Part shown: piece by piece, positions 19,613 to 53,244 of the stretch
How positions within the stretch are numbered: the first letter of the stretch is position 1
Layout: each line of letters opens with the position of its first letter
Assembly (NCBI RefSeq): GCF_024159085.1
Contig: NZ_JAMZDE010000003.1
Location: 124,001 to 188,000, forward strand
Direction of reading: 5' to 3'
Source: Idiomarina rhizosphaerae
GTDB lineage: Bacteria; Pseudomonadota; Gammaproteobacteria; Enterobacterales; Alteromonadaceae
DNA length: 64,000 nt
The notes under the pieces: model-generated
The model's input: only the letters and a program-made list of their open reading frames with translations
What the model was told of the DNA's origin: nothing
Database searches by the model: none
Program-made: the position numbers and the translations under genes

Positions 19613-19636
19613 CCTGACGCAATAGCGTCAGGCTAC
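19613..19636 (-). repeat. REP palindrome, GC type
   Basis: A single palindrome CCTGACGC-AATA-GCGTCAGG followed by CTAC (GTAG on the minus strand). It lies between the ABC flippase and wzz and is the leftmost REP in the window. Confidence 0.85.
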
Positions 19637-22125: not shown

Positions 22126-22181
22126 GTAGCCTGACATTCATGTCAGGAACACTATCTCACCTGACATGAATGTCAGGCTAA
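22126..22181. repeat. Inverted REP pair
   Basis: GTAG plus CCTGACATTCATGTCAGG at 22,126-22,147 and the facing palindrome 22,160-22,177 followed by CTAA, a degenerate foot. It lies in the gap before the beta-CASP gene. Confidence 0.88.
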
Positions 22182-23628: not shown

Positions 23629-23739
23629 GTAGCCTGACGTTCACGTCAGGGAAGGTGTCTCACAACGGTAGCATCACGGAATTATTTTAACGGTGGTTGA
23701 ACCGGGTATACCGCACCTGATGCAATAGCATCAGGCTAC
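23629..23739. repeat. Inverted REP pair after the beta-CASP gene
   Basis: A GT-type palindrome (GTAG at 23,629, stem 23,633-23,650) faces a GC-type palindrome (23,716-23,735 plus CTAC). The 65-base spacer is a divergent relative of the 107-bp module spacer. The right foot gives the Fic gene its TAG stop. Confidence 0.85.
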
Positions 23740-31055: not shown

Positions 31056-31207
31056 GTAGCCTGACATTTATGTCAGGTGAGGTGCCGCTCCTAACCCGCG
31101 TAGCCTGACATAAATGTCAGGAGCGATGTTGAACACGCGGCATCGTCTAATTATTTGGGCGGTGTTTTAAACTGGGTGTATCTCACCTGACGTAAACGTC
31201 AGGCTAC
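31056..31207. repeat. Cluster of three REP palindromes
   Basis: AT-type palindromes at 31,060-31,077 and 31,104-31,121 each follow a GTAG, and a GT-type palindrome at 31,186-31,203 is followed by CTAC. The stretch 31,100-31,207 is a full composite module in inverted orientation relative to those near the RAYT gene. It lies between the LysR gene and ung. Confidence 0.9.
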
Positions 31208-31933: not shown

Positions 31934-31989
31934 GTAGCCTGACATTTATTTCAGGTGAGATACCGTTCCTGACGTAAACGTCAGGCTAC
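31934..31989. repeat. Inverted REP pair between ung and the neu operon
   Basis: GTAG with an AT-type palindrome (31,938-31,955, one mismatch in the right arm) faces a GT-type palindrome 31,968-31,985 with CTAC. The CTAC contains the stop codon of the sialyltransferase-like gene. Confidence 0.9.
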
Positions 31990-38043: not shown

Positions 38044-38191
38044 GTAGCCTGACGTTTACGTCAGGAGCGATATCTCACCTGACATAAATGTCAGGCTACA
38101 AAGTAAATCTGTTCCGTATCTCACCTGACATAAATGTCAGGCTACAAGGTAAATCCGTTCCGTATCTCACCTGACATAAATGTCAGGTTAC
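38044..38191. repeat. Cluster of four REP palindromes
   Basis: A GT-type palindrome at 38,048-38,065 after GTAG faces three AT-type palindromes at 38,078-38,095, 38,124-38,141 and 38,170-38,187. The last three are in 46-base tandem copies; the final foot is TTAC. It lies between the DUF1302 terminator and the S9 peptidase gene. Confidence 0.9.
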
Positions 38192-42151: not shown

Positions 42152-42514
42152 ATGGCCAGCTGGGAACAGCTTTTTCGTCACTTAGTTCAACAAGCTAAAA
42201 GTCTACCAGAATACCCGGCGGAATGTCGTGATGACGATCATCTGGTGGGCGGCTGCGAGGCTAAAGTGTGGCTATGGCTGGATACCTCTGATGTGGAGGC
42301 AGTAGTGATTCGTTTTGATTCGGAGTCACGCATAGTGCGCGGCTTATTGGCGCTGCTGCAACAACGGCTGGACGGCTGTTCTGTTGCTGAGATTTCGACT
42401 TTTGATATTGACGCCTTTTACCGCGCCGAAGGCCTCGACAACGCGCTCAGCCCCTCGCGCAGCAACGGCCTGTATCAGGTAGCCAAAACCTTGAAGCTAA
42501 GGGTTGTAGCCTGA
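42152..42514 (+). CDS. csdE: CsdE/SufE-family sulfur acceptor protein
   Basis: Protein of 120 residues that accepts persulfide sulfur from a cysteine desulfurase. The active Cys lies in DHLVGGCEAKVWLWLD (about residue 30), the SufE/CsdE signature. TcdA (CsdL) is encoded convergently next to it, which matches the CsdA-CsdE-CsdL network of E. coli. No csdA is present in the window. The TGA stop lies inside a REP element (GTAGCCTGA), so the last residues may be REP-derived. Confidence 0.85.
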   Translation: MASWEQLFRHLVQQAKSLPEYPAECRDDDHLVGGCEAKVWLWLDTSDVEAVVIRFDSESRIVRGLLALLQQRLDGCSVAEISTFDIDAFYRAEGLDNALSPSRSNGLYQVAKTLKLRVVA

Positions 42515-42633
42515 CATTCATGTCAGGTGGGATATAACCACTTAAAATACTGCCCAAATAATTAGATGACGACGTTGTGTTCAACATCGTTCCTGACGTA
42601 AACGTCAGGCTACATCTGGGGCTGTCAGGCTAC
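42506..42633. repeat. Composite REP module between csdE and tcdA
   Basis: A full module of 108 bases (42,506-42,613) has an AT-type palindrome on the left and a GT-type on the right. A partial end TGTCAGGCTAC (42,623-42,633) follows. The csdE TGA and the tcdA TAG both lie inside REP sequence. Confidence 0.92.
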
Positions 42634-43415: not shown

Positions 43416-43827
43416 GGCTGGGTTGTTCACTCACATCGTAAATAATAATGCCCACCTGGTGCACTTCACCACGAGGGTTCTTCAGCGGAATTAGGGTGAC
43501 GTTTTGATACATCCATTCACTCTGCCCACTTATTGGGCGGCTATGGCGAAAACGAAAGACGTAAGGACGCTGTTGCCAGGTAATAAACACCCGCGAACTT
43601 AACTGCCGCACCCGGTCAATTTTACGCTGAAACCAGGCCTCTTCGATACCCGGGCAGCAGCGAAATAAATTTTTGTCGCGTACTTCACTAGGGCGCAGGC
43701 CGCTGTGGTTCTGCATAAACTCGTTCCACATCTGAATGTTGTTGTCGTTATCGATAACCACAATGCCGACATCAATAGCACCCAGAATGCTCAGCTTGCT
43801 GTGCAGTTCGTCCATATCGTCTATCAT
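43408..43827 (-). CDS. PAS domain protein
   Basis: Single-domain PAS protein of 139 residues. It shows AIDVGIVVIDNDNNIQMWNEFMQNHSG, a typical PAS start, and a later PAS core LIPLKNPRGEVHQVGIIIYDV. It has no output domain and probably works with the CheX-type response regulator whose stop overlaps its start as ATGA (43,824-43,827). It may bind a small ligand or haem/flavin, which cannot be told from sequence. Confidence 0.8.
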   Translation of the reverse strand: MIDDMDELHSKLSILGAIDVGIVVIDNDNNIQMWNEFMQNHSGLRPSEVRDKNLFRCCPGIEEAWFQRKIDRVRQLSSRVFITWQQRPYVFRFRHSRPISGQSEWMYQNVTLIPLKNPRGEVHQVGIIIYDVSEQPSHE

Positions 43828-44846
43828 TCGTCGTCTCCCTGGAGCCAATGGGCCAGCTGCTGGTCAAGAATTTTCACCGCGTCGGCAGGGAATAACAGCA
43901 GTAAATCGAAGGCCAGTTTGTGCTCCGGTAACTGATAACCAATTTCTATTGCCAGAATTTTCTGCCAGCGATGTTCGCCGTGTTTAATCAATTCCCGCAT
44001 AGACTGATGTTCGCCTAACAGCACCGGCTGCGAAGCCGCAAACTCCACATGCAGTTGCTGGCCTAAACCGTTTAAACACGCTGAGGACAAAATGGACGCA
44101 ACGTCCATTAACGACTCAATGCGTTGTTGCTTAACTGAGCCGCTCTCGCCAAGCTTAGCCCCCAGCAGTTTGCCAATATCGTCAATAGAGGCGTCGTTAA
44201 ACAGTGTTAGTGCTTCACCCAGAATACCGCTGCCGGAGAACCCCTGACTTACCGCAGCTACCTGCTTGTTTGTGTCGATAGACTCTATTGCCATGTGCAG
44301 TTCGGAAGGGGCGATAAAATTCACATTAGGTACAGGCAGTTCAATAAAAGTATCCAACACCCGGGCTAAGTGATCACCGGCTTGCCCCATGGCAACGTTT
44401 GATACTTCCCGGTAGACATCCAGCGGATTCGCCGGAGCCTGTGGTGTTTCATCGGCCAGTTTAAGCTGACCCGCGGCCGGTTGGTACAGGCCAAACTGCT
44501 GCAACAGGGTTTGTATGTCCTCTGGCTTCATCGGCTTTTTAACGAAAGCCATAGCACCCAGAGCCTGCACTCGCTTTTGCGCCTCGGGCTGAATGTCACC
44601 GGACACGACAATAACCAGGGTTTCTAATTGCTCTTCTTTTATGGCCTGCAGGGTTTCATAGCCGTCTTTTACCGGCATATTTAAATCCAGAAACAGTACT
44701 TCGGCGCGACCTTCGCGCACGCAGGTGAGTGCCTGCTCTCCGTGCTCCGCCTGGTGAACCTCTGCATCCCAGTCATCTGGCAGCGTGCGTAATAGCTGCT
44801 TACGCGCCATTTTGGAGTCATCGCACAGAGTGACTTTTAACGTCAT
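43824..44846 (-). CDS. Response regulator with CheC/CheX-like domain
   Basis: Protein of 340 residues. The N-terminal receiver (1-120) has the acid pocket CDDS, phospho-acceptor Asp in VLFLDLNMPVKDGYE, VVSGD and KKPM. The C-terminal part (about 145-340) contains paired phosphatase-type helices, as in CheC/CheX (EVSNVAMGQAGDHLAR and ESLMDVASILSSACLNGLG). Such proteins remove phosphate from CheY-like receivers. The gene heads an operon with the PAS protein and tcdA. The cognate kinase is not evident. Confidence 0.85.
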   Translation of the reverse strand: MTLKVTLCDDSKMARKQLLRTLPDDWDAEVHQAEHGEQALTCVREGRAEVLFLDLNMPVKDGYETLQAIKEEQLETLVIVVSGDIQPEAQKRVQALGAMAFVKKPMKPEDIQTLLQQFGLYQPAAGQLKLADETPQAPANPLDVYREVSNVAMGQAGDHLARVLDTFIELPVPNVNFIAPSELHMAIESIDTNKQVAAVSQGFSGSGILGEALTLFNDASIDDIGKLLGAKLGESGSVKQQRIESLMDVASILSSACLNGLGQQLHVEFAASQPVLLGEHQSMRELIKHGEHRWQKILAIEIGYQLPEHKLAFDLLLLFPADAVKILDQQLAHWLQGDDE

Positions 44847-44931: not shown

Positions 44932-45315
44932 GTAGCCTGACATTTATGTCAGGTGAGGTATCCCCGATGAAAATACCGCCCAAATAATTAAGCGATGCCT
45001 TGTGTTCGACATCCTTCCTGACGTAAACGTCAGGCTACGAACGGATAAATTGCAGCGGTGTTGTAGCCTGACATTTATGTCAGGTGAGATATCACCGATG
45101 AAAATACCGTCTAAATAATTAAGCGATGCCTTGTGTTCGACATCCTTCCTGACGTAAACGTCAGGCTACGAACGGATAAGTTGCAGCGGTGTTGTAGCCT
45201 GACATTGATGTCAGGTGAGATATCCGCGATGAAAATACCGTCTAAATAATTAAGCGATGCCTTGTGTTCAACATCGCTCCTGACGTAAACGTCAGGCTAC
45301 ATCAATGTCAGGCTG
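44932..45315. repeat. Tandem array of three REP modules upstream of the RAYT gene
   Basis: Three 107-base modules start at 44,932, 45,063 and 45,194, so the period is exactly 131 bases. Each has an AT-type palindrome after GTAG, a shared spacer of about 63 bases, and a GT-type palindrome before CTAC. A 24-base linker separates the first and second modules and the second and third. A degraded fragment ends near 45,315. This array fills most of the 543-base gap between the CheX-type regulator and the RAYT gene; nothing else was seen there. Confidence 0.95.
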
Positions 45316-45389
45316 CATCAACCAATACGCCGTTTTCCTACAACACAATGGAATTGACCGTTTCTGGGTTATGACTATTAATTAGCTGC

Positions 45390-45947
45390 ATGACTAGTGT
45401 ACGCAGATACTACGAAGGTGGATGGTATTTTTTTACCGTTTGCACCTACAAAAGACAAAAGGTACTAACACGCCCCGATGTTCTGGCGGCGTTACGTAGT
45501 GCCGTGAAAGAGACCATAAAAACTCACCCGTTTGAAATAGAGGCGTGGGTTGTCATGCCTGATCACCTGCATTGCGTATTGAGAATAATGGACACGAATG
45601 TTCCGGTTCGATGGTCTAAAATTAAGGCCTTAACCTCTAAAGCTTTGCCAGAATTTTCACACAAAAATTACAACGCGCACTATAAGAATAAGAGCAGACA
45701 AAAACGTCAACTAAACAGCCTGTGGCAAAAAGGATATTGGGAGCACACAATTCGTAACGAAAAAGAACTTTATATGTACTTACTTTACTGCTGCTACAAC
45801 CCGGTAAAACACCGTTACGTTTCAAACGCTACCGAATGGCCCTATTCAACTTTGAACCAATATCTACGCAACAGGCGCTACCCACCCGATTGGGCTTACA
45901 TTAACGAATCTTGGGTAGACAGTAACCTCGCCGCGTACGACCCATGA
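45390..45947 (+). CDS. REP-associated tyrosine transposase (RAYT, TnpA-REP)
   Basis: Single-stranded DNA endonuclease of 185 residues of the Y1/HUH class. It has FFTVCTYKRQKVLTRPD, the His-x-His metal motif in VVMPDHLHCVLR (about residues 54-65), and the catalytic Tyr region YCCYNPVKHRYV followed by EWPYSTLNQYL. All elements look intact. Known RAYTs recognise a GTAG next to a hairpin, which is exactly what the surrounding palindromes show. Tandem REP modules lie just upstream (44,932-45,300) and downstream (45,987-46,141). The Shine-Dalgarno before the ATG is weak, so expression may be low. Confidence 0.93.
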   Translation: MTSVRRYYEGGWYFFTVCTYKRQKVLTRPDVLAALRSAVKETIKTHPFEIEAWVVMPDHLHCVLRIMDTNVPVRWSKIKALTSKALPEFSHKNYNAHYKNKSRQKRQLNSLWQKGYWEHTIRNEKELYMYLLYCCYNPVKHRYVSNATEWPYSTLNQYLRNRRYPPDWAYINESWVDSNLAAYDP

Positions 45948-45960
45948 CGCAACCTGCGTT

Positions 45961-46141
45961 GGTGATGCCGTGTGTTCGACATCGATCCTGACGTAAACGT
46001 CAGGCTACGGGAGATAAACTGCGATATTACGGGCGTAGCCTGACATTTATGTCAGGTGAGATATCACCGATGAAAATACCGCCCAAATAATTAGGCGGTG
46101 CCTTGTGTTCGACATCCTTCCTGACGTAAACGTCAGGCTAC
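45961..46141. repeat. REP modules downstream of the RAYT gene
   Basis: The right half of a module (spacer end from about 45,961, palindrome 45,987-46,004, CTAC to 46,008) is followed by a full module at 46,035-46,141. The last foot supplies the thyA stop codon. Confidence 0.93.
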
Positions 46142-46989
46142 ACGGCGAAGGGATATTTAATGGGTTCGTGGCACTGGTAACCGCTGACGGTGAAATCGTC
46201 TTTGCTGACCCAGGTTTCAATGTCTTCCAGAGATTTAATGTCTGGGTTTATGTGCAGCTGCGGCGATGGGAAAGGCTCACGTTTCAACTGAACGTCGCGC
46301 ATTAACTCTAACTGGTTTTCATAAATGTGAGCGTTCACTATCTTATGATATGCCTTGCCCGGCTTGTGACCGGTAATTTGTGCCACCAAAGCTAAAAGAA
46401 CAAAGCACTGAATTTGATTAAAATTGAGTCCCAGCGGTACGTCGCAGCTGCGTTGGTACGATGTCAGATACAACGTGTCACCTAACAGTGAAAAGTTGTG
46501 GGTATGCATGCACGGACGCAAACAACCCAGTTCAAATTCGCCCGGGTTATAGAAGGTCACTATCTCTCCGCGGTCATCAATGCCTTTCGACAGGTTATTA
46601 ATAACCTTTTTCAACTGATCTAAGTGGCTTCCGTCCGGTTTTTGCCATGAGCGCCCCTGCACGCCATAAACGCGTCCCATGTCGTCTTCGCCTTTGCGAT
46701 TCGGGTTATTCAACCATGCCTGGTTTTCGTTGGCATTGGCGTCCCAGGTTTTGCAGCCAATATCACGGAATTGAGCGGCGCTGTCGTAGCCTCGCAAGTA
46801 CCCTAGAAGCTCAGCAATAGCCGACTTGTAATAGCTTTTCCGAGTAGTAATTAGCGGGAATTGGTTGTTGGCAACGTCGTACTCTAAGTCAGCGTTTATG
46901 ACCGTTAGGCAGTTAATGCCTGTACGTTCATTTTTAACCCAGACCCCTTCGTCGACAATGCGTTGGCACAGTTGTAAATATTGTTTCAT
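46138..46989 (-). CDS. thyA: Thymidylate synthase
   Basis: Enzyme of 283 residues that methylates dUMP with methylenetetrahydrofolate. The active Cys lies in [12 protein letters not shown], and [18 protein letters not shown] binds dUMP phosphate. The slightly long form is that of Vibrio/Alteromonadales ThyA rather than E. coli. The TAG stop is the TAG of a REP GTAG foot (46,138-46,141). It belongs to the conserved rppH-ptsP-lgt-thyA order. Confidence 0.95.
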
Positions 46990-47040: not shown

Positions 47041-47196
47041 GTAGCCTGATGCTATTGCATCAGGTGAGATCTTATCCGTGGAAGGCCATCTGCAGTAGCC
47101 TGACATCTATGTCAGGAACGGTATCTCACATAACCTCTTCGTAGCCTGACATTTATGTCAGGGCTAATATCCCACCTGACATAAATGTCAGGCTAC
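47041..47196. repeat. Cluster of four REP palindromes between thyA and lgt
   Basis: A GC-type palindrome (47,045-47,064, loop TATT) and two AT-type palindromes (47,099-47,116 and 47,145-47,162) each follow GTAG. They are closed by a facing AT-type palindrome at 47,175-47,192 with CTAC. Confidence 0.9.
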
Positions 47197-52413: not shown

Positions 52414-52469
52414 GTAGCCTGACATTTATGTCAGGTAAGGTATCGCTCCTGACGTAAACGTCAGGCTAC
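52414..52469. repeat. Inverted REP pair after mutH
   Basis: GTAG and an AT-type palindrome (52,418-52,435) face a GT-type palindrome (52,448-52,465) with CTAC, without the long spacer. Confidence 0.9.
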
Positions 52470-52529: not shown

Positions 52530-53192
52530 ATGCAATTTAATGTCAGTCCTCAAGCTAAGCGCAACGCGTTAACCTTTTGTGGGTTGGCGGTATTGTTGTT
52601 TGCACTACTGGTTTTCCTTCACCTGGTGCGGGACGACATTCCGGTTGGTGTTACTGTGGTGCTTGGCGCAACGTCCGGCATATTTTTGCTGTTAGGCGTT
52701 GGTAAAGTGATAGAGCCTCCGGTGTCGCTGGTGATCACCGAAGAAGGCATTCGTTATTTGCACCGCCGTGGACAATGGCAGATTCGCTGGGAGAATATTA
52801 TCCGCTACGACGTTCCCCGCGTGAATCGGGTGCTGGAGCTTGAAGATGCCCCCTTTTTGGGGTTCCGACTGTATCAGGTTGAAGAAGTGCTGGATGACAT
52901 TTCGCCGCGTTTAGCCTCTGCCCTGCTGTTTGAACAACGCCAGTTGCTGACCATGGCGTTGAGGCATCAGGCACCCGAGCGCGAGGATTATACACCTTAT
53001 TTTGATATTCCGGACAGTTACATTAGCCCCAATGGTACTGTTTATAAGGGGCTAATTGGTGTGTTTGGTAAGCGCATGGAACAAATGCGGGAATTACTTG
53101 GCTACGACCTTTACGTAAGTTCCAATGCGCTGGACCGCGACATTTACGATTTTAAAGCCCATTTGCAGAAGTTGCAGACATCGCGTACGTAG
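52530..53192 (+). CDS. DUF2982 membrane protein
   Basis: Protein of 220 residues with two N-terminal hydrophobic helices (about 15-35 and 40-60) and a soluble remainder. It matches the DUF2982 family found in Alteromonadales and Vibrio; its function is unknown. The conserved IRYLHRRGQWQIRWENI part recalls a PH-like fold. The TAG stop lies in a REP GTAG foot (53,189-53,192). Confidence 0.8.
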   Translation: MQFNVSPQAKRNALTFCGLAVLLFALLVFLHLVRDDIPVGVTVVLGATSGIFLLLGVGKVIEPPVSLVITEEGIRYLHRRGQWQIRWENIIRYDVPRVNRVLELEDAPFLGFRLYQVEEVLDDISPRLASALLFEQRQLLTMALRHQAPEREDYTPYFDIPDSYISPNGTVYKGLIGVFGKRMEQMRELLGYDLYVSSNALDRDIYDFKAHLQKLQTSRT

Positions 53193-53244
53193 CCTGACGT
53201 TTACGTCAGGAACGATACCTCACCTGACATAAATGTCAGGCTAC
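53189..53244. repeat. Inverted REP pair between convergent DUF2982 and EAL genes
   Basis: GTAG with a GT-type palindrome (53,193-53,210) faces an AT-type palindrome (53,223-53,240) with CTAC. Both converging genes end with the TAG of a REP foot, so the whole 48-base space between them is REP. Confidence 0.93.

Follow-up and report, generated by a model that had tools for sequence, protein, structure and literature searches.

REP sequences and the RAYT genes associated with them have been described in several bacteria, with most REP families being genome-wide in distribution according to the accessible part of PMC3733652. RAYT cutting of single-stranded REPs at foot-guided sites is covered by work on E. 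coli, Stenotrophomonas and Marinomonas, and the spread of REPs is regarded as poorly understood in the portion of that literature available (PMC8266576). Nunvar et al. (2010) reported that REPs gather near rayt, in regions of up to two hundred kilobases, in three marine gammaproteobacteria and in Thauera, and proposed that new REPs arise preferentially near rayt (PMC2817692). Local accumulation has therefore been in print since 2010, and the kind of system presented here is already known; as far as the accessible parts of the sources go, the same is true of RAYT/REP pairing and of REPINs (PMC2817692, PMC3116915). The name Idiomarina occurs nowhere in the main text of PMC2817692, and no paper on REP sequences in Idiomarina was found in a literature search of partial coverage. 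The present analysis adds a distance curve, a correspondence of halo and gene position in five neighbourhoods with their palindromes, and leftover REPs in RAYT-less relatives, none of which was found in this partial search.

The system analysed here lies in a stretch of 64,000 nucleotides from Idiomarina rhizosphaerae (the window) and, judged by sequence, is an ordinary RAYT/REP pair by family. REPs accumulate near the rayt gene as they do in the cases of 2010, for which neither a decay curve nor a cross-locus test within one family was found in the accessible part of PMC2817692. E. coli TnpA-REP (4er8) is the only strong solved relative of the window RAYT by sequence (3.9e-27), and the two systems share an HxH motif with a tyrosine, the same GTAG-contact residues, a GTAG foot by a hairpin and flanking REPs. 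The REPs of E. coli need a bulge for activity according to the available text of PMC8266576, whereas those of Idiomarina have perfect 8-bp stems; furthermore, rayT of E. coli MG1655 is without a halo in the stretches compared, whereas the Idiomarina RAYT has one. The REPINs of P. fluorescens SBW25 are likewise RAYT-associated and formed by two inverted REPs and a spacer within one hairpin, but the SBW25 doublets are described, in the part of the paper available, as randomly distributed and extragenic (Bertels and Rainey, 2011; PMC3116915), while the Idiomarina REPINs are regional. Perfect palindromes after GTAG are also reported for the group 3 REPtrons of Stenotrophomonas and Marinomonas, the Stenotrophomonas REP having an 8-bp stem and a 3-nt loop (PMC8266576, accessible part). 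The motifs of the window RAYT (DHLH, WE and Y..YNP) agree better with group 2 in the table of PMC6006769. Long REPs, often bulged, also belong to the description of group 2 (subclass 2.2, the E. coli type), but the REPs here have perfect 8-bp stems with no bulge, so that the RAYT is only a candidate member of that group.

The RAYT gene and its REP sequences

The RAYT open reading frame has no internal stop and is present in single copy in the genome that holds the window (G000; 2.87 Mb, 9 contigs searched), where its neighbours are a response-regulator-like ORF, judged by eye, and thyA (Table 1). Its product scores 152.9 bits against the curated NCBIfam model REP_Tyr_transpos (NF047646; cut-off 80, 5.3e-45). 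An IS200/IS605 insertion sequence was ruled out, with NF033573 reaching 36.3 bits, below its cut-off of 55, and one copy in the genome. The HxH motif and a single catalytic-type tyrosine aligned to Y115 of E. coli are found in all 24 aligned proteins, E. coli included, and in the alignment the window RAYT is identical to E. coli at W94, Q95, E100, H101 and R104, the E. coli residues discussed for GTAG contact in the available part of PMC6006769. In a tree with midpoint rooting only, the 20 RAYTs of Idiomarina and Pseudidiomarina are set apart, with a support of 100/100, from the four remaining proteins, one of which is E. coli RayT. The closest named relative, as identified through RAYT, is Idiomarina ramblicola (93% identity).

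A pattern search of the window, in which a hairpin was defined by an 8-bp stem with at most one mismatch and a loop of 2-4 nt, detected 33 CCTGA...TCAGG hairpins in 12 clusters between 19,613 and 53,240. In 31 of the 33, GTAG immediately precedes the hairpin or CTAC immediately follows it, so that the counts given for all three by the earlier note were reproduced exactly. The strict form CCTGACRTNNAYGTCAGG comprises 29 of the 33 hairpins, 27 of them with the foot, and when up to 3 mismatches were allowed 48 strand-matches were obtained, against a shuffle mean of 0.01 (100 shuffles). The REP unit consists of GTAG, the 8-bp stem and a 2-nt loop. An intact RAYT between arrays of the same palindrome, as had also been claimed, was confirmed, with an uninterrupted reading frame and REPs that recur in the genome bordering it on both sides. 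Rfam gave nothing at gathering threshold within the window.

Table 1. Positions in the window of RAYT, its neighbouring genes and the REP-type sequences.
Feature	Position	Strand
REP-like hairpin, 4-nt loop, CTAC foot	19613..19636	-
Two REPs, foot of second not intact	22126..22177	
One strict REP and one 4-nt-loop hairpin	23629..23739	
Three REPs	31056..31207	
REPIN, 56 bp, mismatch in one stem	31934..31989	
REPIN, then two further REPs, 46-bp tandem	38044..38191	
Two REPs, opposite orientation	42506..42613	
Response-regulator-like ORF	43824..44846	
REP array before RAYT: 131-bp unit in 2.8 copies, six REPs in all	44932..45300	
RAYT, 185 aa, intact	45390..45947	+
Three REPs downstream of RAYT, last abutting thyA end	45987..46141	
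thyA	46138..46989	
Four hairpins, last two forming a REPIN	47041..47196	
REPIN, 56 bp	52414..52469	
REPIN, 56 bp, ssDNA folds as single hairpin, z -7.9	53189..53244	

On the 345,097-bp contig of G000 to which the window belongs (C3), 25 adjacent head-to-head REP pairs were identified, 18 of which have a 12-nt hinge of type TGAGATATCGTT and 6 a spacing of 63-64 nt, the wide spacing also being that of the pairs in the array before RAYT. A pair with the 12-nt hinge amounts to 56 bp and folds, as single-stranded DNA, into one hairpin (z -7.9), as a REPIN does. ATG-started ORFs of at least 200 codons cover 82% of C3, yet not one of the 81 palindrome midpoints on the contig is inside such an ORF. 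With a GTAG foot, a short hairpin, an extragenic location and a high copy number (112 copies), the palindromes have the properties of REP elements.

The halo of REP sequences around RAYT

The strict GTAG-REP occurs 112 times in G000 (0 for a reversed control pattern), and 76 of these copies are confined to C3:36-220 kb, a stretch of 184 kb with RAYT at 169 kb. The spread over 33 kb described earlier thus stands inside the window, but the true region measures about 184 kb, only part of which the window holds. Patterns taken from beside RAYT might count the local type only and miss older stems farther away, and two features of the data lend themselves to this explanation: the patterns of the relatives were taken from hairpins near RAYT, and palindromes change even at one locus. 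We regard it as highly improbable in view of a stem-blind search, made on this contig only, in which GTAG with any perfect 8-bp hairpin was found 95 times, always within 36-220 kb and with a CCTGA stem in 94 cases, indicating that the confinement on C3 is not caused by the search pattern. Each of five control feet yielded 0 or 1 hairpin on C3, the maximum in the G008 stretch being 4. The origin or terminus as a border of the halo was unsupported: along C3, every 15-kb bin except one has a negative GC skew, with no lasting sign change, and in the single-contig genome G005 (2.84 Mb) RAYT is found at 0.53 Mb (record coordinates).

The distance test comprised 13 genomes (10 and a further 3), with REPs at most 1 kb apart merged and the RAYT-flanking array removed beforehand; in the relatives, palindrome patterns came from hairpins within 10 kb of RAYT. 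In G000, 12 of the 112 REPs were without an individual position and entered as separate distant clusters. G001, G006, G010, G018, G079, G083 and G084 were left out, as were G021, G036, G046, G068 and G075, for which no REP pattern was made. REP clusters were enriched within 150 kb of RAYT in 12 of the 13 genomes (10 of 10 and 2 of 3; P <= 0.0015 each, uncorrected), with genomes that share a neighbourhood being non-independent, relatives' genome sizes being rounded values and near counts being lower bounds on account of contig ends. In the 10-genome set, the enrichment ranged from 5.1-fold (G082) to 16.8-fold (G081), and the pooled number of clusters per 100 kb was 13.1 at 2-10 kb, 9.7 at 10-25 kb, 4.2 at 25-50 kb, 5.6 at 50-100 kb, 1.4 at 100-150 kb, 1.2 at 150-200 kb, 0.6 at 200-300 kb, 0.3 at 300-500 kb, 0.24 at 500-1000 kb and 0.59 at 1000-1500 kb. 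This profile is not fully monotonic, since 50-100 kb exceeds 25-50 kb and there is a rise past 1 Mb. Two genomes of the thyA neighbourhood may serve as examples: 29 of the 43 REPs of G005 (one contig, 2.84 Mb) and 17 of the 26 of G008 are within 150 kb of RAYT.

RAYT lies within a densest 200-kb interval of its own contig in 9 of 11 genomes, being off-centre in G015 and G004. On the short contigs of G000, G008 and G015, a random centre equals RAYT in 20 to 67% of draws, so that the evidence in these genomes comes from setting the region against the remainder of the genome. Enrichment is weaker in G004, where RAYT is at 531 kb but the densest interval at 576-776 kb, and where the 1.5 kb to either side of RAYT contain no GTAG hairpin. 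Most REPs of the searched type in G004 are on one side, at C1:576-996 kb and up to 465 kb from RAYT; these one-sided REPs could mark an earlier RAYT position. In G082, 13 REPs were observed at C1:10-95 kb, in the first 95 kb of a contig other than that of RAYT; the contig with RAYT ends 46 kb away from the gene, and the two contig ends perhaps adjoin. A genome from another family, G059, has 7 of its 13 REPs at RAYT itself, none of its clusters at a distance of 2-150 kb and no halo.

As a control, the 300 kb around rayT of E. coli MG1655 were found to contain 15 REP clusters (51 REPs) and the antipodal 300 kb also 15 (27 REPs). Clusters at 0-2, 2-10, 10-25, 25-50, 50-100 and 100-150 kb numbered 1, 1, 0, 3, 2 and 8, respectively; between the stretches compared there is no cluster halo at rayT, single REPs alone being commoner near it.

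It is fairly probable, as a whole explanation of these patterns, that RAYT spreads the REPINs of its own lineage preferentially near its own gene and that the halo arises in this way. On single-stranded DNA, REPs of the same lineage would be recognised by the single-copy RAYT through their GTAG foot and hairpin and would be spread by it, mostly as 56-bp REPIN dimers, to intergenic sites. Dispersal would favour DNA near the RAYT gene, either through a cis-preference of the protein or through strand transfer limited to nearby DNA; a protein acting near its site of synthesis would suffice, and so would strand transfer confined to a single folded or replicating stretch. A halo of about 100-150 kb would then build up wherever RAYT resides and fade once it is lost. 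We infer both the role of RAYT as the mover and, from geography, its preference for nearby DNA; the explanation draws support from copy numbers that track the matching RAYT clade, from the crowding seen in five neighbourhoods with different palindromes and from the leftover REPs of RAYT-less relatives (see below). Weighing against it are G059, with no halo, G004 and G015, with off-centre ones, the random-centre result on the three short contigs, G007, whose leftover REPs lie outside the syntenic halo in the stretches read, and G001, with 22 REPs of a type that is missing beside its RAYT. That RAYT acts in cis, with dispersal falling with distance over about 100 kb, is advanced more tentatively, as a proposal that might almost as readily hold as fail. 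If it does hold, halos would record the present site of RAYT, and a former site before its loss or move, and a genome-wide pattern like that of E. coli would represent overlaid old halos or a trans-acting form. The remark of 2010 on local accumulation becomes, with such a curve, a testable number.

Neighbourhoods and palindromes in relatives

A RAYT match was obtained in 17 of 78 genomes in a first search and in 8 of 8 in a second, 25 in total, and within the genus its occurrence is patchy (11 of 19 genomes). Strict GTAG-REPs, counted as strand-matches of the footed pattern and thus twice where a palindrome is doubly footed (seen in G005 and G007), number 112, 43 and 26 in the three genus members with the RAYT clade of the window and 0 to 12 in the other 16 (0 in 9 of these); they are absent from all 59 further family and order genomes searched. 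The earlier note had proposed a lineage-specific RAYT/REP pair, a view that would suffer if the palindrome were equally abundant in relatives without this RAYT clade, and had called for counts genome-wide and in relatives. With 0 to 12 copies where the clade is missing, the palindrome is not equally abundant there, and the proposal is borne out, with high copy numbers only alongside this RAYT clade and none in the 59 genomes outside the genus.

Shared ORFs of at least 150 aa were compared around 15 RAYT loci. The thyA neighbourhood is that of G000 and G008, as well as of G005, assigned by thyA; one neighbourhood is common to G080, G081, G082 and G085 (seven Pseudidiomarina loci compared), and further ones were recognised for G009/G010/G014/G018, for G015/G078, for G001/G004 and for G006 alone. 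Neighbourhood groups have at most one ORF in common, at 34-40% identity. The RAYTs of G006 and G078 adjoin homologs of C3:88-93 kb and C3:114 kb, which places both near the thyA locus on the Idiomarina map. It could be envisaged that the region itself attracts or tolerates REPs, for instance through much intergenic space or weak selection, and the three thyA-locus genomes do have their halo on the same syntenic stretch, with the same asymmetry. This is quite unlikely, however, considering that cognate palindromes crowd RAYT in four other neighbourhoods, with no more than one weakly similar ORF in common, and that C3 at 1-36 and 220-345 kb is without any of the 95 GTAG hairpins. Under the preferred reading of dispersal from RAYT, single RAYTs in different neighbourhoods, with different palindromes and their own halos, would lend themselves to measurements of how far REPs are disseminated, and the same family series allows enzyme residues to be matched to repeat sequence.

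The palindromes vary from one neighbourhood to another, and species with a common neighbourhood can differ as well. A GTCG/CGTG/CTTG pattern was found in 109 copies in G018, 86 in G006, 84 in G010, 66 in G009, 64 in G014, 62 in G004, 22 in G001, 3 in G012 and 1 in G002, with 0 in the remaining 10 of the 19 genus genomes, and a CCTGYYGC pattern in 100 copies in G015, 1 in G013 and 0 in the 17 others. In G001, RAYT, in the stretch C1:205-225 kb, is bordered by CCTTCGGC hairpins, and the genome also holds the 22 hairpins of GTCG/CTTG type, a type not flanking its RAYT. RAYTs with GTAG-GTCG/CGTG/CTTG REPs (G009, G010, G014, G018, G006a and G004) have H95 and D100 (E. coli numbering), and those with GTAG-CC stems have E100 in all cases and Q95 in most. 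The difference in residues 95-101 is a possible candidate for a specificity switch; as the D100 rows cluster together in the tree, apart from G001, such a switch may correspond to one or two events.

Site differences and RAYT-less genomes

Collinearity with the C3 halo is seen in G005 (91.9% identity) and, for the most part, in G008 (82.8%) and the RAYT-less G011 (82.0%). For 32 of the 38 REP clusters of C3, both flanks were found together in G005, where 18 of the 32 are without a strict REP and 14 have at least one. As examples, each compatible with gain or loss, REPs of G000 at C3:36.1, 105.6, 115.0, 155.1, 156.0, 176.4 and 219.8 kb correspond to 0-19 bp between the flanks in G005, as do those at C3:91.8, 102.3 and 162.0 kb in G008. 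Horizontal transfer of a large block that already contained RAYT and REPs, the halo being the import, would be in keeping with the several neighbourhoods of RAYTs and their patchy occurrence in the genus; the collinearity just described and the many REP sites that differ between G000 and G005 render it very unlikely.

Single-REP tandem runs of one orientation and regular steps were observed at C5:26.8-27.4 kb and C9:151.2-153.4 kb of G018 and at C17:73.4-73.7 kb of G015, with steps of about 71, 85 and 49 bp, respectively. Such long regular runs indicate that REP arrays grow in tandem too, and this growth is also plain in the window, with its 131-bp and 46-bp tandem arrays. The halo could on these grounds be attributed to local tandem duplication and gene conversion near a founding array, with RAYT only maintaining or cutting REPs. 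That account is unlikely, as the REPINs of G000 that are missing in G005 or G008 sit in distinct intergenic spacers with tens of kb between them, arrays were merged before distances were counted, and high copy number tracks the matching RAYT; dispersal by RAYT to intergenic sites remains the preferred reading.

G011 and G003 have no RAYT match and carry 10 and 6 GTAG-REPs, of which 7 and 4 lie in halo-syntenic stretches (P 2e-7 and 1e-4, values that are flattering because the stretches were picked by REP positions). In both genomes, the spacer that separates thyA from the regulator gene has REP-like hairpins; a RAYT remnant was also sought at the thyA locus of each, and the spacer gave no convincing match. 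The pattern fits a loss of RAYT after which the REPs stayed; alternatively, the REPs may have come without the RAYT gene. Synteny was read in G003, G011, G007 and G017, out of seven RAYT-poor members with 1-12 REPs (the others being G002, G012 and G016). In G007, three stretches containing 6 of the 12 strand-matches were read and showed no synteny with C3, and the stretch around one of the 2 REPs of G017 is syntenic with C3:70-83 kb. Where its relatives carry RAYT, the 668-bp spacer of G011 has other sequence that, judged by eye, resembles fragments of small genes, among them a helix-turn-helix regulator, with a single REP after it.
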